Of a stretch of 64,000 nt of DNA, positions 36,546 through 52,389 are shown piece after piece. The stretch covers positions 1 to 64,000 of the forward strand of contig JAAVGM010000038.1 of assembly GCA_014800245.1 (NCBI GenBank), read 5' to 3'. The stretch comes from Bacteroidales bacterium (GTDB lineage: Bacteria; Bacteroidota; Bacteroidia; Bacteroidales; Muribaculaceae). Under the pieces are notes generated by a model. That model was not told the origin of the DNA and did no database searches. It saw only the letters and a program-made list of their open reading frames with translations. Positions within the stretch are counted from its first letter, which is position 1. The number at the start of each line of letters is the position of its first letter. The translations under genes and the position numbers were made by a program.

Positions 36546-39500
36546 TCAATACTCCTTCCAGGGAGTGATGCCGATCTGGCTCTCCTTCTTATTGATGAAG
36601 GCCTTCACAAACGCGCTCGCAAGGCGCGCATTCGTAAGCAAAGGAATATTGTGATCGATAGCCCATCGGCGGATGCGATAGCCGTTGGTAAGCTCACGAC
36701 GTGTATGATTCTTCGGAATATTGATCACCAGGTCGATCTTATGATCCGAAATCAGATCCAACACATCGATCCCCTCGCCCGGCTCATCAGGCCATGAGGT
36801 CGGGATAGCCTTGATTCCATTCTGATTGAGGAAGGCAGCTGTGCCGGCAGTGGCATAGATAGGATAACCATTCTCATCGAGCAGACGACAAGCCTCAAGC
36901 ATATCCACCTTGCCGCGAACATCTCCCGAACTTACAAGCACTCCCTTCTCAGGAACATGATGACCCACAGAGATCATCGCGTTGAGCAGAGCCTCATCGA
37001 AATCCTTGCCAAGACATCCAACCTCACCTGTAGAAGACATATCTACACCCAATACAGGGTCGGCCTTATGCAGACGCGCGAATGAGAACTGAGATGCCTT
37101 CACGCCGATATAATCGATATCGAATGTCGAAGTATCCTCCTTCTCCACTTTCTCCCCAAGCATGATGCGTGTGGCAGTCTCGATGAAATTCTTCTTGAGC
37201 ACCTTCGACACGAACGGGAACGAACGAGAAGCGCGGAGGTTGCACTCAATCACCTTCACATAATTATCCTTGGCAAGATACTGGATATTGAACGGACCTG
37301 AGATATTAAGCTCCTTGGCAATCTGTGCGCTGATGCGCTTGATGCGACGGGCTGTAGCCATATATATCTTCTGTGCAGGGAATACGAGAGTGGCATCGCC
37401 TGAATGGACGCCGGCAAACTCAACATGCTCCGAAATAGCATATTCCACAATCTCGCCGTTGCGGGCCACAGCGTCAAACTCTATCTCCTTCGCATTCTGC
37501 ATGAATTCCGACACAACCACCGGGAATTCTTTCGACACCTTCGCAGCCTGCGAAAGGAAGCGGTGGAGCTGTTCGTAGTCGTAGCATACATTCATTGCCG
37601 CGCCGGAAAGCACATATGAGGGGCGAACCAATACCGGGAATCCAACCTCCTTGATGAAGCCGTCGATCTCCTCAGTGGTGGTAAGCTCCTTCCAACGGGG
37701 CTGGTCGATGCCGAGCTGATCGAGCATGGCAGAGAATTTATGACGGTTCTCAGCGCGGTCGATGGAGATGGGAGATGTGCCGAGCACAGGCACATTCTGA
37801 CGGTAAAGCTTCATCGCAAGGTTATTGGGGATCTGGCCTCCAACGCTCACGATAACGCCGCGCGGAGTCTCAAGGTCGAGGATATCCATCACGCGCTCAA
37901 AGCTAAGCTCGTCGAAATATAGACGGTCGCACATGTCATAATCCGTTGACACGGTCTCTGGATTATAGTTGATCATCACCGACTTGTAGCCGAGCTTGCG
38001 GCAAGTGTTGGCGGCATTCACCGAACACCAGTCGAACTCCACCGACGACCCGATGCGGTAAGCTCCCGAACCGAGCGTCACGATATTGTTATTGCCGATC
38101 ATGTCATAGTTGATCGAATTTTCAGTAGCTCCGTAGGTCGCGTAGAGATAGTTGGTAAGCTCCGGATATTCGGATGCCACAGTATTGATGCGGCGGATAG
38201 CCGGGGTGATCCCAAGGTTCTTGCGGTGGTTGCGCACGCGGAGGATATCGCTCTCCATGTTGCCGGCAGGATTCTCAACGAATCGTGCAATCTGGAAGTC
38301 GGAGAAACCAAGTCGCTTAGCTTCACGCATCACATCCTCGGGAAGATCCTCAATGCGGTCGTAGCCTTCAAGAACACCCTTATATCTTACTATATTCGCA
38401 AGACGTTCGATAAACCATTTGTCGATCTTAGTCAGCTCCTCGATGCGCTCCACAGTGTAACCCTCCTCAAGAGCCTGTGCAATAGCGAAGATGCGGAGGT
38501 CAGTGGGGTGGGAGAGCACGCTGTCAAGATCCTCGAAATGAAGATCGTTGTTCCCTACAAAACCATGCATACCCTGGCCGATCATACGGAGACCCTTCTG
38601 GATAATCTCCTCGAAAGACTTGCCGATCGACATAATCTCGCCCACAGATTTCATCGACGATCCGATCTCACGGTCAACACCTACGAATTTCGAGAGGTCC
38701 CAACGCGGAATCTTCACAATCATATAATCCACAGAAGGAGCCACGTAGGCTGAATTAGGAGTGCCCATCTCACCTATCTGATCGAGAGTATAACCCAAAG
38801 CGAGTTTTGCAGCCACAAAAGCCAAGGGATAGCCCGAAGCCTTGGAAGCAAGAGCGGAAGAACGGCTCAGACGAGCATTGATCTCGATGATACGGTAGTC
38901 ATTAGTCTCGGCATTGAAAGCATACTGAATATTGCATTCCCCCACGATGCCGATGTGGCGAACCACCTGACGGGCGATATCCTCAAGCATTGTGATCTGC
39001 TCCTTTGTGAGCGACACGATAGGAGCCACCACGATAGATTCGCCGGTATGAATCCCTAATGGGTCGAAATTCTCCATCGGAACCACAGTGAAGCAATGGT
39101 CGTTTGCATCGCGGATCACCTCAAACTCGATCTCCTTCCAGCCCTTCAGGCTCTCCTCCACGAGAATCTGCTTCGAATAAGCCAAAGCGCTCTCGCAATG
39201 TTTGATGAATTCCTCCTCATTAGTGCAGATGCCCGAACCGAGACCTCCAAGAGCATAAGCCGAGCGCACCATCACCGGGAAACCGATCCTGCGAGCCACA
39301 GCCACAGCATCCTCAAGCGTCTCAACAGCCTGCGACACCGGAGTCTTGGCATCGATTTCATTAAGTTTCTTCACAAAAAGGTCTCGGTCCTCGGTGATCA
39401 TGATTGCCTCTACCGAAGTGCCGAGCACCTTCACGCCATACTTCTCCAGCGTACCATTAAGATAAAGTTCCGTGCCGCAATTCAGGGCAGTCTGGCCTCC

Positions 39501-39752
39501 GAAAGCCAAAAGAATACCATCCGGGCGTTCCTTCTTGATCACCTCCTCCACGAAATGAGTATTGATAGGGAGGAAATAGACCTGATCGGCAACACCCTCA
39601 GAAGTCTGGATAGTTGCGATATTCGGGTTGATAAGCACTGTAGAGATCCCCTCCTCGCGCAGAGCCTTAAGTGCCTGCGAGCCGGAGTAATCAAATTCGC
39701 CCGCCTGTCCTATCTTGAGGGCACCCGAGCCGAGTAGCAAAACCTTTTTCAT
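36546..39752 (-). CDS. carB: Carbamoyl-phosphate synthase large subunit
   Basis: Makes carbamoyl phosphate from bicarbonate, ATP and ammonia for pyrimidine and arginine synthesis. It is 1068 residues from ATG 39752 (MKKVLLLGSGALKIGQAGEFDYSG), the usual size; the frame extends 35 codons upstream without support. Two homologous ATP-grasp halves are present (EINARLSRSSALASKASGYPLA and the VIECNLRASRSFPFVSK copy), with a C-terminal allosteric MGS-like domain (GYPIYATAGTAAFL). The glutaminase subunit carA is not adjacent. Confidence 0.96.
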   Translation of the reverse strand: MKKVLLLGSGALKIGQAGEFDYSGSQALKALREEGISTVLINPNIATIQTSEGVADQVYFLPINTHFVEEVIKKERPDGILLAFGGQTALNCGTELYLNGTLEKYGVKVLGTSVEAIMITEDRDLFVKKLNEIDAKTPVSQAVETLEDAVAVARRIGFPVMVRSAYALGGLGSGICTNEEEFIKHCESALAYSKQILVEESLKGWKEIEFEVIRDANDHCFTVVPMENFDPLGIHTGESIVVAPIVSLTKEQITMLEDIARQVVRHIGIVGECNIQYAFNAETNDYRIIEINARLSRSSALASKASGYPLAFVAAKLALGYTLDQIGEMGTPNSAYVAPSVDYMIVKIPRWDLSKFVGVDREIGSSMKSVGEIMSIGKSFEEIIQKGLRMIGQGMHGFVGNNDLHFEDLDSVLSHPTDLRIFAIAQALEEGYTVERIEELTKIDKWFIERLANIVRYKGVLEGYDRIEDLPEDVMREAKRLGFSDFQIARFVENPAGNMESDILRVRNHRKNLGITPAIRRINTVASEYPELTNYLYATYGATENSINYDMIGNNNIVTLGSGAYRIGSSVEFDWCSVNAANTCRKLGYKSVMINYNPETVSTDYDMCDRLYFDELSFERVMDILDLETPRGVIVSVGGQIPNNLAMKLYRQNVPVLGTSPISIDRAENRHKFSAMLDQLGIDQPRWKELTTTEEIDGFIKEVGFPVLVRPSYVLSGAAMNVCYDYEQLHRFLSQAAKVSKEFPVVVSEFMQNAKEIEFDAVARNGEIVEYAISEHVEFAGVHSGDATLVFPAQKIYMATARRIKRISAQIAKELNISGPFNIQYLAKDNYVKVIECNLRASRSFPFVSKVLKKNFIETATRIMLGEKVEKEDTSTFDIDYIGVKASQFSFARLHKADPVLGVDMSSTGEVGCLGKDFDEALLNAMISVGHHVPEKGVLVSSGDVRGKVDMLEACRLLDENGYPIYATAGTAAFLNQNGIKAIPTSWPDEPGEGIDVLDLISDHKIDLVINIPKNHTRRELTNGYRIRRWAIDHNIPLLTNARLASAFVKAFINKKESQIGITPWKEY

Positions 39753-39949
39753 GTTGTTAAATAAAAAATTATCTTGTCGCGCCGACGGAGTCGGCAGCGG
39801 AATTAACATTACTATGCCGAGCTTGTCAGCAGCGGAATTAACAGTAGTCATCGGCAAAGCCGATGCGAGTTAAATAACATCGGAATCGTTTCCGAATGCA
39901 AAATAACAAGAATTCTCCCATATCCGCAAATTTTCCCCTCATTTTAATA

Positions 39950-40268: not shown

Positions 40269-40302
40269 TTTGCTTAATATTCAAATTTTTTATTTACTTT
40301 TG
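40269..40302 (+). promoter_or_regulatory. Promoter of the eight-gene operon
   Basis: TTTG (40269-40272) and TACTTTTG (40295-40302) are 22 bp apart. The start of transcription would be near 40309, directly before palindrome 2. Confidence 0.7.
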
Positions 40303-40373: not shown

Positions 40374-41567
40374 ATGAAACGTGTTTTTTGGCTTCTTCCA
40401 TGTCTTATTATTATGGTCTTAGTCTCTGTTATTTCGTGTGGTGGAGATAAGATAGAGGTTAGTTCAGAGTCTGGACAATTGCCGGAAGCTAAGGGTGCAC
40501 CGTCAGTTGATGTGTTCATTGAAAATTCAGGTAGTATGGATGGATACATGTGCAACGGCTCACAGCTTAAGGATGCAGTCTATGATTATGTAAGTGATCT
40601 TAATCGCTCCACTGATACAACACGTCTTTATTATATAAATAGCCAAATTATTCCTTATAAAGGCAATCTGAAATCCTATATAAAAGATTTAAATCCCGAA
40701 CAGTTTAAATTATCCGGAGGAGATCTCACTTCAACTAATCTTGGCGAGGTAATAGGTTCGGTATTAAAAAAAGTAAATGATAAAACGGTATGTATCTTCA
40801 TATCAGACTGTATTTTGGATCTTCCAAGTAAGGATGCCCAGAAGTTTCTTACTAATTGTGAGATCACTATAAAGGATGAGGTGATAAATACAATGAAAAG
40901 AATTCCAGATCTGGGTGTAGAAATTTTAAAATTGACTTCGGATTTCAATGGAAAATATTTTTATCCTAATGGCTCGGTTGAGATGTTGGAAAATGTGCAA
41001 CGACCCTACTACATATGGATAATAGGAAATAAGTATCAGATTGCAAAACTTAACAAAAGAGTTCCTTTAGATCGGTTGGTAAAATATAATTTGAAAGGGA
41101 TTTGTGCATTTGTTGGGGAAACAACTATACCATATGAAATTCAGAATCGGAATCTCACCGGTGGTGTGGTGACACCAAAGGGTGGTCGATACGAAGCCAC
41201 GATAAGAGCTGATTTTTCAGGTACGTTGCAGCCATCCGGAACTGTGCAGGATAAGGCTAATTATTCCTTTCATCAGAGAGGGGTTACTGTAGAGGGTGTG
41301 TATCCAATATCAGATAAGAAAAGTCTCTATACCCACTACGTGAATATTTCTATCCCCCAAGATATGAAAGTTGTGGAAGAAGAGCTGATATTTAATAGTC
41401 CTAAGATGCCTAAATGGGTTAATGAATCTAATGATGAATCAGGAATGAACGTTAAAGCAAATCTGGATAAAACAACAGGGATTAAATATCTTGTCCAAGG
41501 TGTAGCTGACGCATATCGTGATGAGGACATAAGTTCAAAAATGAAATTTAGAGTAACAAAAAAATAA
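40374..41567 (+). CDS. vWA-like lipoprotein, first gene of the motor/cytoskeleton operon
   Basis: A 397-residue protein with a lipoprotein signal ending at VISCGG (Cys 22). A von Willebrand A-like fold is suggested by SVDVFIENSGSMDGYM, a MIDAS-like motif with Glu-Asn in place of Asp-x, and by the strand TVCIFISDCILDL, followed by a beta-rich C-terminal half. It is likely anchored in the membrane facing the periplasm, where it could bind a metal-dependent partner. It is 6 nt from the next gene. The vWA call is by motif and needs structure support. Confidence 0.75.
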   Translation: MKRVFWLLPCLIIMVLVSVISCGGDKIEVSSESGQLPEAKGAPSVDVFIENSGSMDGYMCNGSQLKDAVYDYVSDLNRSTDTTRLYYINSQIIPYKGNLKSYIKDLNPEQFKLSGGDLTSTNLGEVIGSVLKKVNDKTVCIFISDCILDLPSKDAQKFLTNCEITIKDEVINTMKRIPDLGVEILKLTSDFNGKYFYPNGSVEMLENVQRPYYIWIIGNKYQIAKLNKRVPLDRLVKYNLKGICAFVGETTIPYEIQNRNLTGGVVTPKGGRYEATIRADFSGTLQPSGTVQDKANYSFHQRGVTVEGVYPISDKKSLYTHYVNISIPQDMKVVEEELIFNSPKMPKWVNESNDESGMNVKANLDKTTGIKYLVQGVADAYRDEDISSKMKFRVTKK

Positions 41568-41573
41568 AATAAA

Positions 41574-42032
41574 ATGGGAAATTTTTTTGGTAGTATCTAC
41601 TGTTGGTTCGAAAGCTTTTTTGGAATAGAGCTTGCCGACTATCTATGGGGAGTCTCGTCTTCCCAATCGAATACAAACCAATTTATTGGTATCGGACTGT
41701 GGATGTTGGGAATCTCTCTTTTCACCGTAATCCTTTATTATTACATCATCAATCATCCGAGGCTCTGTAGTTGGTGGGGATGGGGTATTTTTCTATTACT
41801 CAATGCTGTAATTAACTTCTTTGTTGGTTGGCAATGGGTGTTGGCAGATAGTTATGAAGGAAAAATGGTTACGTTTGATCCCTCAACCAATCTTGAGGTG
41901 CCGCTGAATATTAGTTCATCTGAGATGCTTTGTTTTGGAGTTTCTAATATGATTCTTTCTATCTTGGCATTTTCTCTATTTACATTATGTTTAAAATGGT
42001 GGAGTAAAAACTGCTCCAGCGCACCTTTCTAA
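41574..42032 (+). CDS. Small multi-pass membrane protein
   Basis: A 152-residue protein with three or four hydrophobic segments (about 38-58, 66-88 and 120-142; the first 25 residues are also hydrophobic). There is no known motif. It is 6 nt after the vWA lipoprotein and 2 nt before the tubulin-like gene, so it is probably an assembly partner in the inner membrane. Confidence 0.7.
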   Translation: MGNFFGSIYCWFESFFGIELADYLWGVSSSQSNTNQFIGIGLWMLGISLFTVILYYYIINHPRLCSWWGWGIFLLLNAVINFFVGWQWVLADSYEGKMVTFDPSTNLEVPLNISSSEMLCFGVSNMILSILAFSLFTLCLKWWSKNCSSAPF

Positions 42033-42034
42033 TT

Positions 42035-43429
42035 ATGGCAAAAATATATGTTTTCGGGATTGGCGGTACAGGTTCTCGTGTACTCCGTTCTTTAACGATG
42101 TTGCTCGCTACAGGAATAAAATTTGGAGCTGATGAGATTGTGCCCATCATTATTGATCCGGATGCATCCAATGCGGATCTCACAAGAACCGTAGCACTTT
42201 TGAATAATTATTCCTCAATACGCAAAGATCTTCAGTTTGCAGGTGAGAATGAGAATAAATTTTTTAGAGTCGGAATACGGCAGATTCTACCAAATTTCAC
42301 TCTTCACATAAAAGATACTGATGGTAAATCGTTTCAGCAGTTTATCGGATATTCTTCGATGTCAAAGAGTAATCAAGCATTTACAAAAATGCTTTTTTCT
42401 GAAAAGAATCTGGAATCATCAATGGAGGTGGGATTTAAAGGCAATCCCAATATTGGAAGTGTTGTGCTAAATCAAATTTCCCAATCTTCCGATTTTGAGG
42501 AATTTGCCAGTTCTTTTAATGATGGAGATAAGATATTTATTATCAGCTCTATTTTTGGCGGTACTGGTGCGAGCGGTTTTCCATTGCTCCTTAAAACCCT
42601 TAGAAATGGTTCGAATTTTCCCAATTACGATATCATAAATAAGGCTACCATTGGAGCTGTGACGATATTGCCTTATTTCAAACTCAAACCAAGTGAGGAA
42701 AGCGAGATTGACTCTTCTACATTTATCTCAAAAACAAAATCTGCACTCGCATATTACGAAAATAATATCGTAAATAATGGCTCCATAGATGCATTATATT
42801 ATTTGGCTGATGATAACGCTCAGATTTATGAGAATCATGAGGGTGGATCCACTCAGCAAAATGATGCTCATTTGGTTGAGTTTTTGGGTGCGACGGCGAT
42901 AGCAGATTTTTCAAATTCCTCGTATATGGGGAAGGCTAATCTCGAACTTGGAATCAAGGATATTGCAGGAGCTGTAACTTTCAATTCGTTCTATTCTAAG
43001 ATGAAAGGATTGCTCTATTCGCCGATGGTGCAGTTCACGTTGATGACAAATGCTTTGACTCATAAAGTCTCCTTCTTTGATTCTTCAAAATTTGCTGCCA
43101 ATAAAGGTAATTTTGAAGATTTCTATTCAGGAGTGTTCTTCAACGAGCTTTCATCGTTCTTTAAAAGATATCTTGAATGGTTGGGAGAAATGAAGGGAAA
43201 TGTTCGTTCTCTGGATCTTTTCAATGAAACTTGCGTAGATAAGCCTTTTGATCTTGTAACCGGTGTTAAAGCCAAAAAGATATTAAGCAGGTATTCAGAC
43301 TATGATCTTGTAACAGACCGTCTGAATGATGCGATAAAAAAATGTAAGAGTAAAGGAACTGAGAATAAATTCCTTGAAATGTTCTATCTCGGAACTCAGA
43401 AACTCGTAAAAGAAAAACTTACTAATTAA
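42035..43429 (+). CDS. Tubulin/FtsZ-like GTPase
   Basis: A 464-residue cytoplasmic protein. The N-terminus KIYVFGIGGTGSRVLRSL is the first nucleotide loop, PIIIDPDASN follows, and IFIISSIFGGTGASGFPLLL carries the tubulin signature (GGTGxSG) that binds GTP phosphates. The C-terminal half has TDRLNDAIKK and helical stretches. Such tubulin-like proteins outside division have been found in bacterial gene clusters linked to membrane functions. It probably forms filaments or a switch; the catalytic loop residue is not identified. Confidence 0.8.
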   Translation: MAKIYVFGIGGTGSRVLRSLTMLLATGIKFGADEIVPIIIDPDASNADLTRTVALLNNYSSIRKDLQFAGENENKFFRVGIRQILPNFTLHIKDTDGKSFQQFIGYSSMSKSNQAFTKMLFSEKNLESSMEVGFKGNPNIGSVVLNQISQSSDFEEFASSFNDGDKIFIISSIFGGTGASGFPLLLKTLRNGSNFPNYDIINKATIGAVTILPYFKLKPSEESEIDSSTFISKTKSALAYYENNIVNNGSIDALYYLADDNAQIYENHEGGSTQQNDAHLVEFLGATAIADFSNSSYMGKANLELGIKDIAGAVTFNSFYSKMKGLLYSPMVQFTLMTNALTHKVSFFDSSKFAANKGNFEDFYSGVFFNELSSFFKRYLEWLGEMKGNVRSLDLFNETCVDKPFDLVTGVKAKKILSRYSDYDLVTDRLNDAIKKCKSKGTENKFLEMFYLGTQKLVKEKLTN

Positions 43430-43434
43430 GTGCT

Positions 43435-46400
43435 ATGTCGAAAATATTCAGATTATATAAAGAAGGTTCAACCACGTATGAGGATTGGAATAACAGTCCT
43501 GCCTTCCCATATAATTCTACAAGTCGCGATACGATAGAGGATCCGGATGGAGCTTCTGCCCGCCATGAGATCACCTCTATCCCATCTCCTTTTGCGCGTA
43601 TAGATCTTATAAAAAATGCTTTTAAAGAGGTCTGCAAACCTGTAGATAGAAATGGGAAAGTAGATCTCGATGGAAACACTATTTTTCATAAGATGGTGTC
43701 GGATACCCTTGACGTTGCTGAAATATTTTTCAATATTGATAAGTATAATGGCAAGGTTGAAATAATAAAATGGGATTCAGAGTTGATGTTGAAAGAACTA
43801 CAGTCTTCCGACATAGATGGTCATCGTTATCTTGCAGATGCATTGAAAAAGTATATGGATTCGGATAAGAAAACATATAATTTCGATGAATCGTCCAACA
43901 TCTATATGCTAAATTATACTGCTGGTCCCGACGAACTCAATATAATTGGCGCAACATCACCTGCGACACTATTCTTTAGCACAGCAAATGATCTGAGCTA
44001 TGTGAACGACATATTCTTTGGCGATGATATACCGTTTGATAGTGATTACCAGCCTTTGTATAAAAGGGATTTTGAGTTTGTTAGATACCTTTTCGCGTTG
44101 CGAAAAACAATCCATAATTTTGCAGGATTGTTCCCGGAAGTGGATGCCTACTTGAATGCTACATTTAAAGCTATCAAGGATTCTGATAAGAAGAGTGAAT
44201 TGCTCAGTCTATCCGCAACTACACTCGATGATTATGCTCAATTAGATGTTAAAGAGCGGATGCAAAGTGATATCGTGGAGGTATTGGGTCATACTCTCTA
44301 TAAGAAATCAGTGGCTGGAATAAAGCATTCAAGCGATTTCTATATAAAGTCAGACTTACAAACCGAGGATCTTCCATTGGTTTTGCCTGTGGAAGCCGGG
44401 AATCGTTATGCAGATTTGCAATATACCACAGCTAAGTGGGGCAGAACAAATAAGGCTCCTTTTAGAGATGAGGAGAATGACTTGACAAAACGTATTCTTC
44501 CTTATGATGGTTCTGTTCATTCCTACCTTACAATAAGTGATTTTCTGGAATCTACTATTATAAAGGTGCCGCACACCCTTAATGAGGAGAATTACTTCGG
44601 TGGCAATATGAATAATGGCCAGCCGGAACAGGCTTTTCTCCTCCCTTTGAAGCCATTGTTCTTCCGCTATTTTACAGTGGAGCAATTAAGGTCGTCGATG
44701 ATGGATGGAAAGCCAATGATTGAAATGAATTATTTGGCTGGAGGGTCAGTCAAGGTGATTCTAAGGATTCCAATCAGTGGTGCTGGGAGAATCTCTTATG
44801 TGGAATATGAGAGAGTATATTATAACGGGAGATTATCTGATTCTGCCAACAATGAAGGAAATATGGTAGAGCTGAAATTCACTGGATTTATTATGCCTCA
44901 GGTGAAGTTTAGCAATTCGGATGATGCCGTGTATAACGTGTCTTGTGTCCAGTCAATGGATGGCAAGGTGGAATTCCGATTCTATAATAATGATATCACC
45001 TTAGTTCCACAATCTATGGAATGTAGAAATGAAGCTAAGGAATATCTGTCGCGGGCAGATAATTATTTAATCAAAAAATCAAACTTTGATTATGTTCAGG
45101 TAAGAAATGAACACGGAGCGGCGGGAATCCTGGTGCCTATTTTCCATGAGCAGAAGAGCATAGAAAAATTTGAATTTGCAATTGATTTGGGAACATCCAA
45201 TACTCATATAGAATTCAAAAAAGGTAATGATCAGCCGAAAGTGTTTTCTTTCAACCACAAAGATTGTCAGTTGTGTGAGATGTTCATACCCACAAGAAAT
45301 GAACATGGAAATCTCGAGGATTTGATTGAGGAATCGGCTCTGATTGAAAGAGATTTTCTTCCCAATGAAGTGGGATCTGGAGATTTCGCATTCCCAACTC
45401 GTACGGTATTGTCGTGTGCAAAGACTGTGGATTGGTCTAAAACCGTAGAGCCTTATAACCTTGTGAATCTTCCTTTCACTTATGACAAAAGGGCAGATCT
45501 CCCATACAATAATTTGAAATACAATATCAAGTGGGGTAAGGGAGATGATCTGATGGTAATGGTGGCTTATGTGCGCACTCTTATGCTTATGTTGCGTAAT
45601 AAGGTTCTCCTGAATAATGGAGATTTGAAGTCAACAAAGATAACGTGGTTTTATCCCATCAGTATGGCTCCGAATCGTCTTCGCAAACTTCGTGAGACAT
45701 GGGATGAGGCTTATGAAGAATACTTCGGAGAGGGAGAAACCTCAAATATCAGTGAGTCGGTTGCTCCAATTCAATATTTCTTCCGCCGCTATTCCACTGC
45801 AACAGATTTGGTTAATGTTGATATTGGTGGAGGAACCACTGATATAGCGTTCGCTAAAGATAAAAAGATTCAATATGTAACCTCATTCCGCTTTGCATCT
45901 AATGCCTTATTCCAGGATTCTTATTCTGATTTGACATTGGATAATGGTATTGTTGACAGGTATAAGGAATACTTCTTGAGACTAATAGAGAGTAAGAGTC
46001 TATTGGAACTTGTGGAAGTGTTCAATAGTGAGAACAATCGAAATCCGTCGAATATGGCTTCATTCCTTTTCGGATTGAAGGATAATACCATACTGAAAAA
46101 TGCAGGGCTTAATGCTAAGGCGATTGATTTCAACTATCTCTTGCAAGAAGATGAGCAATTGAAAATTGTGTTCATCGTATTCTATACAGCTATAATTTAC
46201 CATATAGCTCAGATTGTGAAGAATCTGGAGTTAGAGACTCCACGTCACATATCTTTCAGTGGTAACGGAAGTAAGGTTATTCGTGTTATCACCACTGATG
46301 CTAAGATTTTAGCTAAGTATACGAAACTCATCTTTGAAAAGATTCTTGATCGTCCCTATGGAAAGGAATTGGAACTCATAGGTCTTGAGAAGGATTCTAA

Positions 46401-46824
46401 CCCGAAAGATGCCACTTGTAAGGGTGGTCTTATTGGATCGGAGGATGATGAGGATGTGAGAGAAAAAGCAATTGTATTCAAGAGTGATAACTCCGGCTTA
46501 GTTACAGAAACTGACACTTATGCCAATATAGATTCCAACTATCGAAATAAAACTGTAAAGGCTGTTCGCGACTTCTTTAAATTTGTCTTTGAAGAGATGC
46601 CTAAGTCTTTTAATTTTGACAGGAATTTCGGTGTGGATGCTTCGGCTATGAAGGTTGCAAAGGAAGCAGCAGAGAAGGATCTTGGAACTTATCTTGAAAA
46701 AGGATTGACTGAACGACGAGAAGAAACTGAGGTAGATGATACAATCGAGGAGACCTTATTCTTCTATCCCATCAAGGGTGCACTGCAAAAAATGTCGCAG
46801 GATATTTATTCCTCATTACAATAA
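43435..46824 (+). CDS. Large protein with C-terminal Hsp70/actin-type ATPase
   Basis: A 1129-residue protein. Residues about 575-1000 form an actin/Hsp70-fold ATPase: phosphate 1 FAIDLGTSNTHIEFK (near 580), phosphate 2 NVDIGGGTTDIAFA (near 795) and adenosine motif ISFSGNGSKVIRVI (near 939). The first 570 residues are unlike any family I recognise, and a charged C-terminal tail follows. Some resemblance in size and fold to SrfB-type proteins is possible. No signal peptide. It is 5 nt from both neighbours and is the largest subunit of the operon. Confidence 0.8.
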   Translation: MSKIFRLYKEGSTTYEDWNNSPAFPYNSTSRDTIEDPDGASARHEITSIPSPFARIDLIKNAFKEVCKPVDRNGKVDLDGNTIFHKMVSDTLDVAEIFFNIDKYNGKVEIIKWDSELMLKELQSSDIDGHRYLADALKKYMDSDKKTYNFDESSNIYMLNYTAGPDELNIIGATSPATLFFSTANDLSYVNDIFFGDDIPFDSDYQPLYKRDFEFVRYLFALRKTIHNFAGLFPEVDAYLNATFKAIKDSDKKSELLSLSATTLDDYAQLDVKERMQSDIVEVLGHTLYKKSVAGIKHSSDFYIKSDLQTEDLPLVLPVEAGNRYADLQYTTAKWGRTNKAPFRDEENDLTKRILPYDGSVHSYLTISDFLESTIIKVPHTLNEENYFGGNMNNGQPEQAFLLPLKPLFFRYFTVEQLRSSMMDGKPMIEMNYLAGGSVKVILRIPISGAGRISYVEYERVYYNGRLSDSANNEGNMVELKFTGFIMPQVKFSNSDDAVYNVSCVQSMDGKVEFRFYNNDITLVPQSMECRNEAKEYLSRADNYLIKKSNFDYVQVRNEHGAAGILVPIFHEQKSIEKFEFAIDLGTSNTHIEFKKGNDQPKVFSFNHKDCQLCEMFIPTRNEHGNLEDLIEESALIERDFLPNEVGSGDFAFPTRTVLSCAKTVDWSKTVEPYNLVNLPFTYDKRADLPYNNLKYNIKWGKGDDLMVMVAYVRTLMLMLRNKVLLNNGDLKSTKITWFYPISMAPNRLRKLRETWDEAYEEYFGEGETSNISESVAPIQYFFRRYSTATDLVNVDIGGGTTDIAFAKDKKIQYVTSFRFASNALFQDSYSDLTLDNGIVDRYKEYFLRLIESKSLLELVEVFNSENNRNPSNMASFLFGLKDNTILKNAGLNAKAIDFNYLLQEDEQLKIVFIVFYTAIIYHIAQIVKNLELETPRHISFSGNGSKVIRVITTDAKILAKYTKLIFEKILDRPYGKELELIGLEKDSNPKDATCKGGLIGSEDDEDVREKAIVFKSDNSGLVTETDTYANIDSNYRNKTVKAVRDFFKFVFEEMPKSFNFDRNFGVDASAMKVAKEAAEKDLGTYLEKGLTERREETEVDDTIEETLFFYPIKGALQKMSQDIYSSLQ

Positions 46825-46829
46825 ATCTT

Positions 46830-47762
46830 ATGAACCAAATGAAAAAATATATAATGACAATGTTGCTCCTTTTTATGGGAGCAACATTCTGTGCGTGTGG
46901 AAGTAACAACTCAGATGCCACGAATGCTAATGATCAACAGGGCACGTCTGTGGAACAAACAGAATCTTCCGTAGAAAAAGATTCAATGGCTTTAGCCAAT
47001 AAGGCAGTCTTGGATTCAATAGCGAATTTGCACAGCAACATAGATAAAGTCAACAGCGATTTTACCAGGAAGTCCACCGAAATGGATGAAGAGGTTTCCT
47101 CCTTACGTTGCATGGTGTGGGCTCTTGGTGGATTCTGTGTACTTTGCCTGCTTTTATCTTTCATTGTAATAATGTGGTGTAGAAAACTAAGGGAACAAGG
47201 AATCCAACATCGCGAAGATATTAAGAATCTAAGTAGGCGAGTTGGAAACGGTAATGTTGCCGCATCTTCAGTAGTGGGAAAGCCTTCTAATGAGTATTAT
47301 GAATTAAGGTCTAAGGTTGCCATATTAGAAGATGAGATTAGAAGAATAAATAGAATAGGTGTTCCTACTCCTTCCAGCCAACAGCCAAAGTCTAACCCTA
47401 ACCATACCCCCAATAATGTGGGAGTATCTTCGCCTAAGGAAGAAAAGGTTGTCAAGGCTTATTTTGGAAATCCGACAATGGGGGATAAGGATGGATATTT
47501 CAAGAAGGTTTTAGATTCCAGGGATTCAGATGCCCGATTTGTAGCTGAGATTAGTGGGGACAAAGCCTCATTTAAACCATTAACGGATAGTGAAGCGGCA
47601 AAAAAGACTTTGCTTACATCTGATCAGATGAAGTTGGCCGTAGAATTCTCAGGATGCTCTCTTTCGGAAATGAAGGGTATGGAGATTACTGCCGGATATG
47701 TAGAAAAGAAAGAAAATGGTAGATGGGTTATAAAGAATAAGGCCCGTGTTATTCTAAAGTAA
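46830..47762 (+). CDS. Lipoprotein/membrane coiled-coil protein
   Basis: A 310-residue protein. A signal with lipobox FCACG (Cys near 23) precedes a low-complexity Ser/Gln/Asn linker, a short coiled coil (about 55-92), a membrane helix (about 94-116) and a second cytoplasmic-side coil. The C-terminal domain (about 205-310) is globular (VVKAYFGNPTMGDKDGYF, GMEITAGYVEKK). A lipid anchor plus a second membrane pass would bridge periplasm and cytoplasm. No known family. Confidence 0.7.
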   Translation: MNQMKKYIMTMLLLFMGATFCACGSNNSDATNANDQQGTSVEQTESSVEKDSMALANKAVLDSIANLHSNIDKVNSDFTRKSTEMDEEVSSLRCMVWALGGFCVLCLLLSFIVIMWCRKLREQGIQHREDIKNLSRRVGNGNVAASSVVGKPSNEYYELRSKVAILEDEIRRINRIGVPTPSSQQPKSNPNHTPNNVGVSSPKEEKVVKAYFGNPTMGDKDGYFKKVLDSRDSDARFVAEISGDKASFKPLTDSEAAKKTLLTSDQMKLAVEFSGCSLSEMKGMEITAGYVEKKENGRWVIKNKARVILK

Positions 47763-47769
47763 ATAGGCT

Positions 47770-49428
47770 ATGCATGCATTAGTTCCAGTTATAATTATAA
47801 TAATAATAGCTCTCCAGATTTTCTTTTTTGTAAAGAATCTGTTGAGAATGAATCTTTTCAGTAATATCTTTTCAAAGGAAAAGTCTTGGAGTTTACGAAA
47901 GAACAGTGAAACTGGTTTAGTGGATGGTGTTTACGGTAACGGTAACTCCATCTTTGACTCCATCATTGACTCAATAAATAAGTATCTTGGAAATAATTCA
48001 GGATCAGTAATTGATTTTGGATTGCTTAAAGATGCTGTTGATCGCCATTGTGATTCTGTAGAAGATGACATTGCCACTCAAACTCCTATACCATTGTATT
48101 GGGGTTTGGCAGGTACAATGGCTGGTGTGATCTTAGGTCTGTGGGACTTATTGGATTCAAATGCCATTAACACTCTTATGGGAAGTGCGGGAAGCCATAT
48201 CCAGTCTGCCTCTAATAGTGCGGCCAATGGTATAGACGCTCTTCTTAGTGGTGTGGCATGGGCTATGGTAGCTTCAATTTGTGGTATTATATTAACCACC
48301 TTAAATTCGCTTCTCTTTAAAAAATGTAAACTAAAAGAGGAGTCAGGAAAAAACTCTTTCCTTGCATGGATGCAGGCTGAGTTGTTGCCGGAGCTGCCCT
48401 CCGACACTTCACAGGCTCTTAACAATTTGGTTAAGAATCTTAATAAGTTTAATTCAATTTTTGCCGATAACACCACTAATCTTCGAGATGCTTTAGGGGC
48501 AGTGAATGAGTCCTATGCAATTCAAGCAAATATCATTCAGGCAGTCCACGATATGGATGTCATGAAGATGGCTAAAGCAAATGTGCGAGTGTTGGAAGAA
48601 TTGCAAAATTGCACTGATAAGTTGGAGTATTTTAATCAATATCTCATAGACATTAAGGGATATACTGATGAAATACATCGTTTTGAGAAGCTTTTTGATC
48701 AAAGTGTAGGGCGTTACCAAGTATTGGAGGAGATTCGCGACTTCTTTCATCGTCATAAGGATGAAATCGCAAAAACTACGGCTGATGCAGATAATGCTTT
48801 ACAGTCTGCTTTGAGTGAACTTAAAGAGTCATCAGGTGAAAATATTGAAGAGCTGAATAAGAATTTCACTAAACAGAGTGAGCAATTTAAGAAGACTCTT
48901 AATGAGGAGAAAGAAGCATTTGAGGAATTCATAGGGCATATGCGAACACAGTTTAGCGCTCAGATGTCGCAGATGCCTACACTTCAACGACAGCTGGAGG
49001 AGATTTCGTCAATTCCCTCTCGTCTTGATAAATTAATTGAGAAGATTGAGAAGTCCAACAGCAAGATGGTTGCGGATATTGCAAATGCTTTCAAGCAGGT
49101 AAAACCGAATGCCCCGGTAATGGTAAACCCAGGATCTGATGGTGCAGGTGGCGGTTTCGTTGCAGAATCTTCCATACCTTCTTGGATGAAATTCACAGGT
49201 TGGGTGGCTTTGGTTGTAATTGCTTTGGCATGTATATTCAATGTCGTTACAACTATTTTCCCTATTTCTCATGGAGCAACAGGAAATTATGATTCTGGCG
49301 AAGCAATGGATTCAGCTGTAGAGTCAACTGCGGTTATCGAAGTGGTGGATTCTTTAATAACGGTTGAAGCGACATCGGTTGCAGATTCTGCCACATCCTC
49401 AAATCTACCATATGGAATTAATAGATAA
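47770..49428 (+). CDS. MotA/ExbB/ZorA-like channel subunit with coiled-coil tail
   Basis: A 552-residue protein. Membrane helix 1 is at about 3-25. The paired core helices IPLYWGLAGTMAGVILGLWDLL (about 108-130) and LLSGVAWAMVASICGIILTTL (about 158-182) follow the MotA/TolQ/ExbB pattern. A long helical, coiled-coil region spans 200-450, as in ZorA. Unlike known ZorA, a further hydrophobic helix (about 475-500) and a Ser/Ala/Val tail follow. It would form an ion channel with the next gene product and project a long cytoplasmic tail. Confidence 0.8.
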   Translation: MHALVPVIIIIIIALQIFFFVKNLLRMNLFSNIFSKEKSWSLRKNSETGLVDGVYGNGNSIFDSIIDSINKYLGNNSGSVIDFGLLKDAVDRHCDSVEDDIATQTPIPLYWGLAGTMAGVILGLWDLLDSNAINTLMGSAGSHIQSASNSAANGIDALLSGVAWAMVASICGIILTTLNSLLFKKCKLKEESGKNSFLAWMQAELLPELPSDTSQALNNLVKNLNKFNSIFADNTTNLRDALGAVNESYAIQANIIQAVHDMDVMKMAKANVRVLEELQNCTDKLEYFNQYLIDIKGYTDEIHRFEKLFDQSVGRYQVLEEIRDFFHRHKDEIAKTTADADNALQSALSELKESSGENIEELNKNFTKQSEQFKKTLNEEKEAFEEFIGHMRTQFSAQMSQMPTLQRQLEEISSIPSRLDKLIEKIEKSNSKMVADIANAFKQVKPNAPVMVNPGSDGAGGGFVAESSIPSWMKFTGWVALVVIALACIFNVVTTIFPISHGATGNYDSGEAMDSAVESTAVIEVVDSLITVEATSVADSATSSNLPYGINR

Positions 49429-49446
49429 AATTAATAGATAATAGGT

Positions 49447-50088
49447 ATGGCTCAGAAAAAGGAATCCTTCTTTTGGACAAGTTATTCTGATTTGATGACA
49501 AGTCTGTTCTTTGTCATGCTTGTTCTATTTATTTTGGTGATTGTGCTTCTTCATAAGCGAATGGAGGCAACAGAAGCTCAACTTGAAGAGATAAAGAAAG
49601 TAGAACAATCGACAAAGGATCTTAGTAAGGGAGATTATTTTACATATCGTCCCGATTATAAGAAGTATGTTCTTAACATTCAGGTTAGATACCCATCCGG
49701 AGTTTCAGACTTGAATGAAATTATTTCCGAAGATAAGGAACGTCAATTGGAAAGTCTTGCTCAGGCAGGAAAAGAGATTAAGAATTTTCTTGATAACCAT
49801 AAAGATTATCAGTATGTATTAATTATAGAAGGACAAGCATCCCGAGATATGTACCCTTTAAATTATGAATTGAGTTATCAAAGAGCTTTATCTCTGATGA
49901 AGTTCTGGATGGAGGAAAGAGATATAAATTTTGGTAAAAATTGTGAGATTCTTATTTCCGGTAGTGGAGATGGTAAACTCGATACTCATTCAATGCGAGA
50001 GACCCAGGAAGTGGAAAATCAGCGATTTTTGATTCATATTCTTCCCAAAAATGTCTTTGAAACAACAATTAATGAAGATGGACAGTAA
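49447..50088 (+). CDS. MotB/ZorB-like ion-motor subunit with OmpA-like domain
   Basis: A 213-residue protein. One membrane helix (about 16-38) begins with SYSDLMTSLFFVMLVLF, where D15 corresponds to the proton-binding Asp of MotB. Residues about 105-205 form an OmpA-like peptidoglycan-binding domain (VLIIEGQASRD, YELSYQRALSLMKFW, ENQRFLIHIL). It fits as the stator partner of the preceding gene (18 nt gap). Its end overlaps the protease gene by 38 bp in another frame. Confidence 0.85.
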   Translation: MAQKKESFFWTSYSDLMTSLFFVMLVLFILVIVLLHKRMEATEAQLEEIKKVEQSTKDLSKGDYFTYRPDYKKYVLNIQVRYPSGVSDLNEIISEDKERQLESLAQAGKEIKNFLDNHKDYQYVLIIEGQASRDMYPLNYELSYQRALSLMKFWMEERDINFGKNCEILISGSGDGKLDTHSMRETQEVENQRFLIHILPKNVFETTINEDGQ

Positions 50089-50875
50089 ATTGGTTAATAT
50101 CGTACATATTCTTTTATGTTGCATATTGATTGGAGCAACTTCCTGTGCTCATAAGTCTGGTCATAGATCAAGGGAAGCTCGTGTTCAAGAGAGAAGAGGC
50201 GAAAGTGATAAAGTCACTCAAGTTTCAAATCTTGAAACTAGAGATACGTCTGTCCCGGATGCGAAAGTCAGGCGTGATATCGATATTCCTGTAAATAATG
50301 AAAAGAAAATAAAGTTAGAGGGTTCGCAAATATTTGCAAAATACAATTCTGCTGTGTTTATGGTTTTTACCTCTGACGGGTTTAATGGTTATCAAGGATC
50401 AGGGTTCTTCTTAAATTCTAATGGATTAGCGGTAAGCAATTATCATGTGTTTAAGGGAACGTCTGTTGGTGCCGAACAAATCAAACTTGTGGGAAGCGAC
50501 CAACCATATCAAGTAACAGAGGTTATTCACAGTGATGAGGAAGAAGATTTTATAATTTTCCGTGTCAATGTTTCTAACACAAATTATATTCCAATGGCTA
50601 AAAATCGTCCCTTGATTGGAGAAAAAGTCTATGCTATTGGTAGCCCTCGTGGACTTGAAAATACTTTTTCTTCTGGAGAAGTATCTCAGTGGCGTGACCG
50701 TAACTTGATGCAGATTTCTGCGCTGATTGATCATGGTAGCAGTGGAGGTGCTTTAATTAATGAATTTGGAGAGGTTGTGGGAATCACGTCAGGCACATTC
50801 TATGATGGTTCGCAAGCAAATCTTAATTACGCATGGAGCATAGATGTTGTTAAACCCTACGTAAATATGAAGTAG
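50051..50875 (+). CDS. Trypsin-like (HtrA-type) serine protease lipoprotein
   Basis: A 274-residue protein. The signal ends at the lipobox GATSCAH. The chymotrypsin-fold domain covers about 92-270 with H132 (SNYHVF), D166 (EEEDFIIFRV) and nucleophile S231 (GSSGGALINEFGEVVGI). There is no PDZ domain. Methionines at residues 8 and 10 (50072 and 50078) are alternative starts that still retain the signal. It would cleave a periplasmic target, possibly a subunit of the same complex. Confidence 0.87.
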   Translation: MSLKQQLMKMDSKLVNIVHILLCCILIGATSCAHKSGHRSREARVQERRGESDKVTQVSNLETRDTSVPDAKVRRDIDIPVNNEKKIKLEGSQIFAKYNSAVFMVFTSDGFNGYQGSGFFLNSNGLAVSNYHVFKGTSVGAEQIKLVGSDQPYQVTEVIHSDEEEDFIIFRVNVSNTNYIPMAKNRPLIGEKVYAIGSPRGLENTFSSGEVSQWRDRNLMQISALIDHGSSGGALINEFGEVVGITSGTFYDGSQANLNYAWSIDVVKPYVNMK

Positions 50876-50912
50876 GATTGTTTAATTACATATTAATATC
50901 CACCAATAATAT

Positions 50913-50955
50913 CTGTAGGATTTATACCCTATTCAATAGGGTATAAATCCTACAG
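50913..50955 (+). terminator. Near-perfect 43-nt palindrome closing the operon
   Basis: 21-bp perfect arms (50913-50933 with 50935-50955) around one central base, 37 bp after the last stop. No strong T tract follows; it may still terminate or protect the 3' end. Confidence 0.65.
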
Positions 50956-51068
50956 AAGTTTAAAATACCATTCTAATATAGAGTTGCAACCTTTCAGCCC
51001 TACAAGATAGATAAATTCTATATTTACTGAGATATTTCAGGTTTTAAGTATCTCAATGTATCGAGAGC

Positions 51069-51624: not shown

Positions 51625-52389
51625 ATGAAGACAAGCTTTTATTTCGTTTTCTGGATTGTGATATATCCCATTTTAGGCCTATTCCACAATCCTGTGATTG
51701 CGCAAAACTCGTTTATTGTGGCTCTCGTTCTGGCTTTCGGTTTGTCTTGGCTCCTAAACCGATTGATGCCTAATACGTTAGCTTACGAACGTAAATTGCA
51801 GGTTTCTCCAATTCTATCGGATGTCTATGAGGGAAAGGTGGATTCTTTCAAGAAGAGGATAAGGAGAAATACAATCGTTAGTGTAGTCACTGCCGTTTAT
51901 TTCCTTATAGTCACATTTATCATTGTGGCTTTTTCCGGCAAACAGGTGGAGTGGTTTTCCCTTTTGATTTTTGGATTCCTTTCATTTGGATATATCTCGA
52001 GATCGGCAACTATGTATAAGGCCTATCTAAAATTGAAGGATGATCCGACACCGGAACAATGCATGGAAATAGCCGTGGAGACTCTGCATCTAAATTATTC
52101 ATCCTATTATGAGGAGAGGATGCAGACAGATGGAAAAGAATCAGTGCCCGCACCTCCCCGGAATTTTAAGGCGTTTCAGATTTTCTCCCTCATATTTGCA
52201 GCCTTGGCTGTGATCTTCGGGTTGTTCTGTCTTGTAATGTTTGTCTTGGCATTAATTGGAGACAATTCCTTGGTGGGAGCTATATTTGCCGGCGCCTCAT
52301 TGCTCTATGCTTCCTTAGCCCTTTATTTCGGAATCTCCGATTTCATAGCTATCCGGCAGGAGATGAAATTCATAAAAACTCGACTCTGA
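51625..52389 (+). CDS. Membrane protein of unknown function
   Basis: A 254-residue protein with about 6 hydrophobic segments (7-24, 28-48, 87-108, 113-130, 185-210 and 218-240). A soluble loop lies at 135-180. No motif is recognised. It is 35 nt after the DUF1810 gene and may be cotranscribed. Confidence 0.7.
   Translation: MKTSFYFVFWIVIYPILGLFHNPVIAQNSFIVALVLAFGLSWLLNRLMPNTLAYERKLQVSPILSDVYEGKVDSFKKRIRRNTIVSVVTAVYFLIVTFIIVAFSGKQVEWFSLLIFGFLSFGYISRSATMYKAYLKLKDDPTPEQCMEIAVETLHLNYSSYYEERMQTDGKESVPAPPRNFKAFQIFSLIFAALAVIFGLFCLVMFVLALIGDNSLVGAIFAGASLLYASLALYFGISDFIAIRQEMKFIKTRL

Follow-up and report, generated by a model that had tools for sequence, protein, structure and literature searches.

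Organization of the operon

The window analysed here is the first 64,000 nt of contig JAAVGM010000038.1 from a Bacteroidales bacterium of the family Muribaculaceae (assembly GCA_014800245.1; the source genome is a draft, 70% complete). Several of its nearest protein relatives with a named source likewise come from Muribaculaceae. Positions 40374-50875 hold eight open reading frames (ORFs), here termed g1 to g8, in which tubulin-like and actin-like nucleoside triphosphatases (NTPases) are encoded beside a predicted stator pair resembling ZorA and ZorB of the Zorya systems; across Bacteroidota the first five genes form a core module to which the motor is an optional addition. A reading made from the sequence alone had taken the eight genes for a single operon, and this is borne out: all lie on the + strand, the spacing from g1 to g7 is 6, 2, 5, 5, 7 and 18 nt, and g7 and g8 overlap by 38 nt.

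40374..41567, + strand: g1, vWA-fold lipoprotein (by model; lipobox VISC with Cys22; beta-rich second part)
41574..42032, + strand: g2, predicted polytopic membrane protein, 152 amino acids (aa), from hydropathy alone
42035..43429, + strand: g3, predicted tubulin/FtsZ-like GTPase, 464 aa (GGTGASG loop; Pfam)
43435..46824, + strand: g4, 1129-aa protein, residues 576-1009 modelled as an actin/MreB/Hsp70-type ATPase
46830..47762, + strand: g5, likely bitopic protein (hydropathy)
47770..49428, + strand: g6, predicted ZorA/MotA-type stator subunit (PADLOC, residue conservation, hydropathy)
49447..50088, + strand: g7, predicted ZorB/MotB-type stator subunit (PADLOC, PDB profile, Asp15, OmpA-like domain)
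50051..50875, + strand: g8, trypsin-like protease lipoprotein (Pfam; VSNYHV and GSSGG)

The predicted stator pair

g7 is predicted to be a ZorB-type protein that combines a single transmembrane (TM) segment bearing an ion-path aspartate with an OmpA-like peptidoglycan-binding domain. It matches ZorB1 of PADLOC (E-value, E, 3e-14) and, below the cut-off, OmpA of Pfam (E 6.1e-4); the TM aspartate, Asp15, is kept in 19 of 19 aligned rows. Profile comparison with the PDB places Zorya chains first (8vvn_B, E 9.4e-12; 8VVN and 8VVI are deposited Zorya structures according to the part of PMC11890865 available), and MotB chains are matched in their peptidoglycan-binding part alone, at E about 0.003. 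g6 matches ZorA2 of PADLOC (E 8.7e-7), partly over its coiled part, and falls far below the cut-off of the NCBIfam ZorA model; its TM part finds 8vvi_F (E 0.0071) and 8qyh_A (E 0.02) in the PDB, ranked behind unspecific coiled-coil chains. T116 and S169 are kept in 21 of 21 rows, and the tail appears coiled-coil-like (about residues 210-445) with an additional C-terminal hydrophobic segment. The PADLOC matches and the conserved T116, S169 and Asp15 support the ZorB likeness of g7 noted earlier and suggest the ZorA likeness of g6, both assignments made from sequence.

The absence of ZorC/D and ZorE, also noted earlier, was confirmed by PADLOC, which found none of ZorC+ZorD, ZorE or ZorF+ZorG in the eight proteins, the two genes after them or ten further window neighbours; the latter gave HTH- and TPR-type matches only, and the operon proteins gave no nuclease or helicase match in Pfam, PADLOC or NCBIfam. 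Since a search for these effector genes came up empty, the operon is not filed as Zorya.

NTPases and envelope proteins

g3 is predicted to contain an FtsZ/tubulin GTPase domain with a G-box loop. Its two Pfam matches (Tubulin PF00091, E 2.9e-5; Tubulin_2 PF13809, E 6.3e-5) lie below the curated cut-off; the loop residues G175, G176, T177, G178 and G181 are kept in 36 of 36 rows, and among the 120 nearest homologues listed many carry precomputed PF13809 or PF00091. These matches and the loop uphold the GGTGxSG tubulin-like GTPase first proposed for g3. Residues 576-1009 of g4 are modelled with an actin-type ATPase fold containing phosphate 1, phosphate 2 and adenosine motifs, in agreement with the actin/Hsp70 motif set first read from this 1129-residue protein; Pfam returned weak actin-superfamily matches around residues 786-849 (best E 9.7e-4, below cut-off). 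SrfB (PF07520), considered as a candidate, had no match in the Pfam scan of the operon proteins.

g1 gave no meaningful match in Pfam, and neither g1 nor g3 retrieved a PDB chain by sequence profile within the limits used. The AlphaFold model of g1, with a predicted local distance difference test score (pLDDT) of 90.9, resembles vWA domains; it suggests a vWA/Rossmann fold with a metal ion-dependent adhesion site (MIDAS) motif, as a MIDAS-like E/D-x-S-x-S motif is present and Asp145 is kept in 35 of 35 homologues. Together with the lipobox VISC, this supports the vWA-like lipoprotein of the sequence-only reading. That reading had also suggested structure prediction as a check on the folds; the vWA and ATPase folds are seen in models, and the tubulin and stator assignments come from sequence comparison only.

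g5 had been described as a coiled-coil lipoprotein, a description that fits less well: the window copy has no strict lipobox, and hydropathy shows a hydrophobic segment at the N-terminus, a short outer part, a second hydrophobic segment at residues 89-121 and then a C-terminal domain. The protein is likely bitopic, and its C-terminal domain would lie on the inside of the membrane. g8 was called an HtrA-type lipoprotein; "HtrA-type" fits only its protease domain (Pfam Trypsin_2, E 1.2e-22), as the Pfam scan gave the protease domain alone and no PDZ match. When iterated, the g8 profile drifted, and GxSGG is present in 9 of 21 matches above 70 bits, the window included; the count of g8 in 19 of 68 loci therefore overstates the protease, and g8 is treated as an optional member of the operon.

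Conservation and natural variants

Related loci (numbered L) were collected by scanning named genomes with a g4 alignment, and the best 80 of 106 confirmed loci were kept; those in the set belong to Bacteroidota by title or tree label. Counts refer to the 68 loci whose flanks extend 3.5 kb or more upstream of g4 and 6 kb or more downstream of it. Beside g4, the genes g1, g2, g3 and g5 are present in 66 of these, g6 in 45 and g7 as well in 44; the order of g1 to g5 is intact in 65 of 68, and that of g1 to g7 in 43 of 44. The g5 profile matched in all 68 loci, although it is loose (95 matches in 87 loci). The exceptions are L055 and L056, which have g4 and g5 alone, L066 with split frames, and L018 with a doubled g5 match. 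The association of g1 to g5 is more than chance, and a survey of co-occurrence, proposed earlier as a check, finds that the genes do travel together. Pairwise distances over 47 seven-gene loci correlate with those of g4 at 0.98 for g3, 0.99 for g6, 0.94 for g7 and 0.89 for g5, the lowest, which supports one co-inherited system.

The motor is present or absent in blocks. On a g4 tree of 79 proteins (a quick method with several long branches; L013, L027 and L066 were dropped and four contig-end rows left unlabelled) the motor label changes 6 times against 21.4 in shuffles, with 0 of 500 shuffles as low; the motor has thus been inherited in blocks and gained or lost few times. The system is a core module (vWA protein, small TM protein, tubulin, actin and bitopic protein) plus an optional motor: 21 of the 68 loci have g1 to g5 but neither g6 nor g7. 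A motor-less version of the operon is carried by L002 (NC_022111.1, Prevotella sp. oral taxon 299); this record, of 1.77 Mb, is labelled a plasmid and is probably a chromosome. In L006 (14038-14577) and L017 (14155-14874) the ZorA-like gene is cut to its coiled-coil tail and C-terminal hydrophobic segment; the stator TM segments are absent and no ZorB was found at either locus. The ZorA place is taken in L061 by a short protein with a TM segment and a coiled-coil-like part; in the loci of Pedobacter, Dyadobacter (L057), Chitinophaga and Mucilaginibacter there are instead a 487-576-aa protein with hydrophobic segments at its end and a small membrane protein. Ten extra genes from other lineages gave WG-repeat, SNase, zinc-ribbon, SH3, OapC, DUF6804 and coiled-coil matches only, several of them below cut-off. 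At L018 (17466-22366; a Saccharicrinis metagenome-assembled genome) a zinc-ribbon gene, a weak SH3 match and other membrane-protein genes lie between the ZorA-like and ZorB-like genes.

Outside Bacteroidota, four cyanobacterial plasmids match both g3 and g4; the two examined carry the five-gene core in the same order:

L101:2303-10113: core on a Synechococcus NIES-970 plasmid
L102:1758-9657: core on a Picosynechococcus PCC 7003 plasmid

The E-values, for a search of three loci, are 6.1e-19 and 1.4e-15 for the vWA protein, 1.7e-48 and 3.6e-49 for the tubulin, 1.1e-40 and 9.3e-37 for the actin-like protein, and 1.9e-10 and 4.1e-9 for the g5-like protein; the counterpart of g2, a membrane protein of 169-173 aa, is assigned by position and size only. 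Neither plasmid locus gave a stator match, and the core has thus been observed over a wider range than the motor. The cyanobacterial core genes carry no functional name save one, "prefoldin domain-containing".

Distribution among genomes

In one genus the locus is almost part of the core genome, and in gut Bacteroidales it is accessory. Within the GTDB genus of Hymenobacter rigui g4 is present in 79 of 81 genomes and ZorB in the same 79, the two g4-negative genomes also being without ZorB; g4 gave a single match in 73 genomes and two pieces in six. Both genes lie on one contig in 73 genomes, with starts 3.4-8.1 kb apart, and on separate contigs in 6. Shared flank proteins link 18 loci: 15 of 17 from Hymenobacter (L054 and L078 have no flank link to others), one from Solirubrum and two from Adhaeribacter. 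Further linked sets comprise 5 of 6 Rufibacter loci, 11 loci of the Spirosoma/Larkinella/Fibrella type and three of Pedobacter/Mucilaginibacter; the six Pontibacter loci have at most one common flank protein per pair, and a flank link among the loci of Bacteroidales type is seen solely between L007 and L012.

In the window's own family g4 was found at any similarity in 26 of 149 genomes and at 48% identity or more in 7, its own genome included; in its own genus 6 of 31 genomes carry it, again including its own. A phylum sample of 395 genomes contains at least nine with a strong match (E 2.1e-82 or better, own genome included), a lower bound as two candidates were scored per genome. Nominal matches numbered 358 of 395; the next best after the nine has E 5.4e-16, and the rest listed are weak and short, mostly frames of about 420-480 aa that are taken for FtsA. 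Phage records gave no g3 or g4 match, and viral contigs no g4 match.

Boundaries and neighbouring genes

Two features border the operon:

40269..40302, + strand: match to the pattern TTTG-N22-TAnnTTTG, presumably a Bacteroidetes-type promoter, 71 nt before g1
50912..50956, strand not applicable: perfect 20-bp palindrome, 36 nt past g8, without a T run after it on the + strand

The pattern, the Bacteroidetes-type promoter consensus, occurs six times in the window (10725, 19925, 21991, 25652, 40269 and 46588) against 1.6 expected from shuffles; the match at 46588-46618 sits within g4. A sigma-70 scan was uninformative (41 matches, 40.5 expected). The palindrome is the likely 3' boundary of the operon, and the gene after the operon, a DUF1810 protein by Pfam, is counted outside. 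A membrane protein just past the operon (51625-52386) has a weak match to PspM, a family of the envelope-stress response (NF047839, E 0.0039, below cut-off). Upstream, at 36546-39857, lies a gene like that for the large subunit of carbamoyl-phosphate synthase (carB); contig C29 of this genome carries a further copy with 65% identity to it. When seven same-genus stretches beyond carB were compared for an empty site, only carB aligned over more than 120 bases and no clean insertion boundary was seen.

Proposed function and alternatives

From the modelled vWA and ATPase folds, the conserved catalytic and ion-path residues, the gene order, the co-inheritance and the optional motor and protease, all of which are directly supported, we infer for the operon as a whole one ion-driven envelope machine, whose output would be envelope maintenance or remodelling and not primarily killing or DNA degradation; the probability of this reading is put at roughly 0.45. 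An envelope role is favoured because the locus is near-universal and mostly kept in place in Hymenobacter, and because no Zorya effector was found in the operon or the scanned window neighbours. In the proposed mechanism g6 and g7 would assemble into a stator, expected to be a 5:2 complex, that conducts ions and that the ZorB-type g7 holds to the peptidoglycan; ion flow would turn or bend the ZorA-type g6, whose tail would move or load a cytoplasmic assembly of g4 and g3. g2 and g5 may tether this NTPase assembly to the inner membrane, and g1, with g8 where present, may gate the machine from the periplasmic side, so that force or synthesis would be placed at an inner-membrane site. A more specific picture, of a single peptidoglycan-anchored rotary stator coupled by its coiled-coil tail to both the tubulin and the actin NTPase, with an ancient core in Bacteroidota and Cyanobacteriota and a ZorAB motor exchanged as a power unit between this machine and defence cassettes, is put forward tentatively and is doubtful as a whole.

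The main rival is defence. On this reading the operon would act against phage in the manner of Zorya: its ZorAB-type stator would sense when the envelope is disturbed, and the tubulin and actin NTPases would be effectors that might, for instance, wall off incoming DNA or disrupt the membrane. Several observations favour it. The closest structures to g7 are those of Zorya, the locus is patchy in its own family and genus, and flank sharing among Bacteroidales-type loci is limited to L007 and L012. Defence-type neighbours occur at three loci: downstream in L017 (15307-19330) an HKD-Snf2 helicase (C3a139, E 8.6e-46) and PDC-S02 (E 2.6e-81), in L006 (1431-3890) an SspH-like C-terminal match (E 2.4e-48), and upstream in L002 (9939-11375) a restriction-type protein (E 1.7e-17); because of these, defence was rated slightly higher and the envelope reading slightly lower. 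Type II methyltransferases account for two of the 135 flank proteins. A plasmid of Parabacteroides distasonis (NZ_OY725823.1, L100:5523-9645) has a ZorA-like and ZorB-like pair (E 1.9e-76 and 1.6e-70 against g6 and g7 in a small search) that lacks the vWA-tubulin-actin core and adjoins a DarT-type protein (PADLOC DarT, E 3.6e-14; DUF4433); the locus may represent a mobile Zorya-like cassette equipped with another effector. Toprim and AAA genes also lie near this pair.

In a PADLOC comparison the 135 flank proteins, from 22 Bacteroidales-type loci, were set against a control of 93, which is not a random sample: 39 are ORFs of the window, and 54 were taken from stretches of the same genus, where 5 more ORFs were omitted. 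At E 1e-15, 34 families were matched in the flanks and 30 in the control, with at most two proteins each among the first 25 families listed for either set, and by this crude measure the flanks are not clearly richer. The 135 did not include six proteins longer than 800 aa, nor twelve ORFs running off locus ends; a later scan of those six, one of the twelve and two L002 genes gave defence matches in two of the six large proteins (L006 and L017), in the L017 run-off ORF and in one L002 gene. A candidate restriction-like gene at L077 gave no match. As for the location relative to defence islands that was to be checked, three copies have defence-type neighbours, and the flanks overall show no clear excess by this crude measure.

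Against defence stand the 79 of 81 positive genomes in the H. rigui genus and the flank links among 15 of 17 Hymenobacter loci, together with that lack of a clear excess; no nuclease, helicase, ZorC, ZorD or ZorE was found in the operon, the ten window neighbours scanned give HTH and TPR matches only, and g3 and g4 were not found in phage records, nor g4 in viral contigs. The earlier suggestion of a plausibly anti-phage role is weakened by the near-universality and common flanks in Hymenobacter, although some copies still adjoin defence genes; phage defence is likely not the main role of the operon, and as a full account of the locus this rival is considered rather unlikely.

A second rival holds that the stator is only an ion-gated sensor of peptidoglycan or membrane tension and the core a chaperone-like or scaffold machine for membrane remodelling, with no force passed to a filament. 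In its favour, the core is found without a motor in 21 of 68 loci and on cyanobacterial plasmids, two loci retain just the coiled-coil tail, and FtsZl1-vWA systems are predicted membrane remodellers in the part of PMC2875224 available. Where the motor is present, however, its ion-path residues are invariant in the aligned rows and its distances follow those of g4 no less closely than those of g3 do, and the sensor is held to be unlikely. Membership in the NTP-dependent conflict systems of Kaur et al. (2020), with tubulin and HSP70 as multimerising effectors, is very improbable: vWA, tubulin and HSP70 proteins do occur in mobile neighbourhoods in the portion of PMC7159879 drawn on, but tubulin and HSP70 are separate themes there, and no TRAFAC/DO-GTPase, GAP1 or MoxR-type match was found among the eight proteins in Pfam or NCBIfam.

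If the envelope machine is correct, the Zorya motor would be a general power module and not a part confined to defence. Stators of the ZorAB type are familiar from phage defence; in the present case such a motor is co-inherited within a vWA-tubulin-actin operon that is near-universal in an environmental genus. FtsZl1-type proteins would gain conserved partners, an energy source, and motor-less and tail-only variants to compare, and Hymenobacter offers a host genus where the function can be probed by deletion.

Comparison with known systems

With Zorya the operon has in common the ZorB-type subunit and, as predicted, a ZorA-type partner with a long tail, the OmpA-like peptidoglycan-binding domain and the TM aspartate of ZorB; Zorya function needs ZorAB peptidoglycan binding, tail and ion flow (PMC11890865, in the part available). 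It differs in its partners, which are tubulin, actin and vWA proteins with no ZorC, D or E found, in its near-core distribution in Hymenobacter, and in the additional C-terminal hydrophobic segment of the window's ZorA. GldLM, ExbBD, TolQR and flagellar MotAB are alike at the level of class, as ion-driven stators; the best PDB sequence matches of g7, however, are Zorya chains. The DO-GTPase/MoxR-vWA systems of Kaur et al. resemble the operon in that vWA domains, tubulins and HSP70 proteins recur, and differ in that the operon gave no DO-GTPase, GAP1 or MoxR match.

Myxococcus gliding offers a working analogy, not a claim of membership: in the part of PMC12288465 available, a MotAB-like proton motor (AglRQS) pushes on the actin-family cytoskeleton (MreB) with a small GTPase (MglA) as the switch. 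The window operon may work like this, but its GTPase is tubulin-like whereas that of Myxococcus is Ras-like.

The closest precedent is the FtsZl1 (FtsZ-like 1) family; Makarova and Koonin (2010) predicted that FtsZl1-vWA operons, which in some cases encode OmpA-domain proteins, form a membrane-remodelling system (PMC2875224, on whose available portion all statements here about FtsZl1 are based). Its carriers include Cyanobacteria, and Bacteroides caccae is among the species of the alignment figure; most FtsZl1 proteins have a coiled coil and a helical C-terminal domain, the founding member being 1051 aa long. The likeness lies in a tubulin/FtsZ-like GTPase whose neighbours are a vWA protein and membrane proteins, joined in several genomes by OmpA-domain proteins, and the window operon is of the FtsZl1-vWA kind by its tubulin and vWA genes; the vWA gene is indicated by the g1 model and by g1 in 66 of 68 loci. 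The OmpA-domain neighbours of FtsZl1 operons may include ZorB-like proteins. The differences are that g3 measures only 464 aa and gave no Pfam match of the coiled-coil type, that the P-loop GTPase and protein kinases of FtsZl1 operons gave no match in the window operon, and that the portion consulted mentions no actin/Hsp70-type partner or stator. The sequence-only reading knew of no described system with this set; the full combination was not found described in searches limited to open-licence papers, but FtsZ-like vWA operons had already been predicted. Relative to the 2010 prediction, the new elements are an actin-like partner, a motor of the ZorAB type, a core shared across phyla and near-universality in Hymenobacter.

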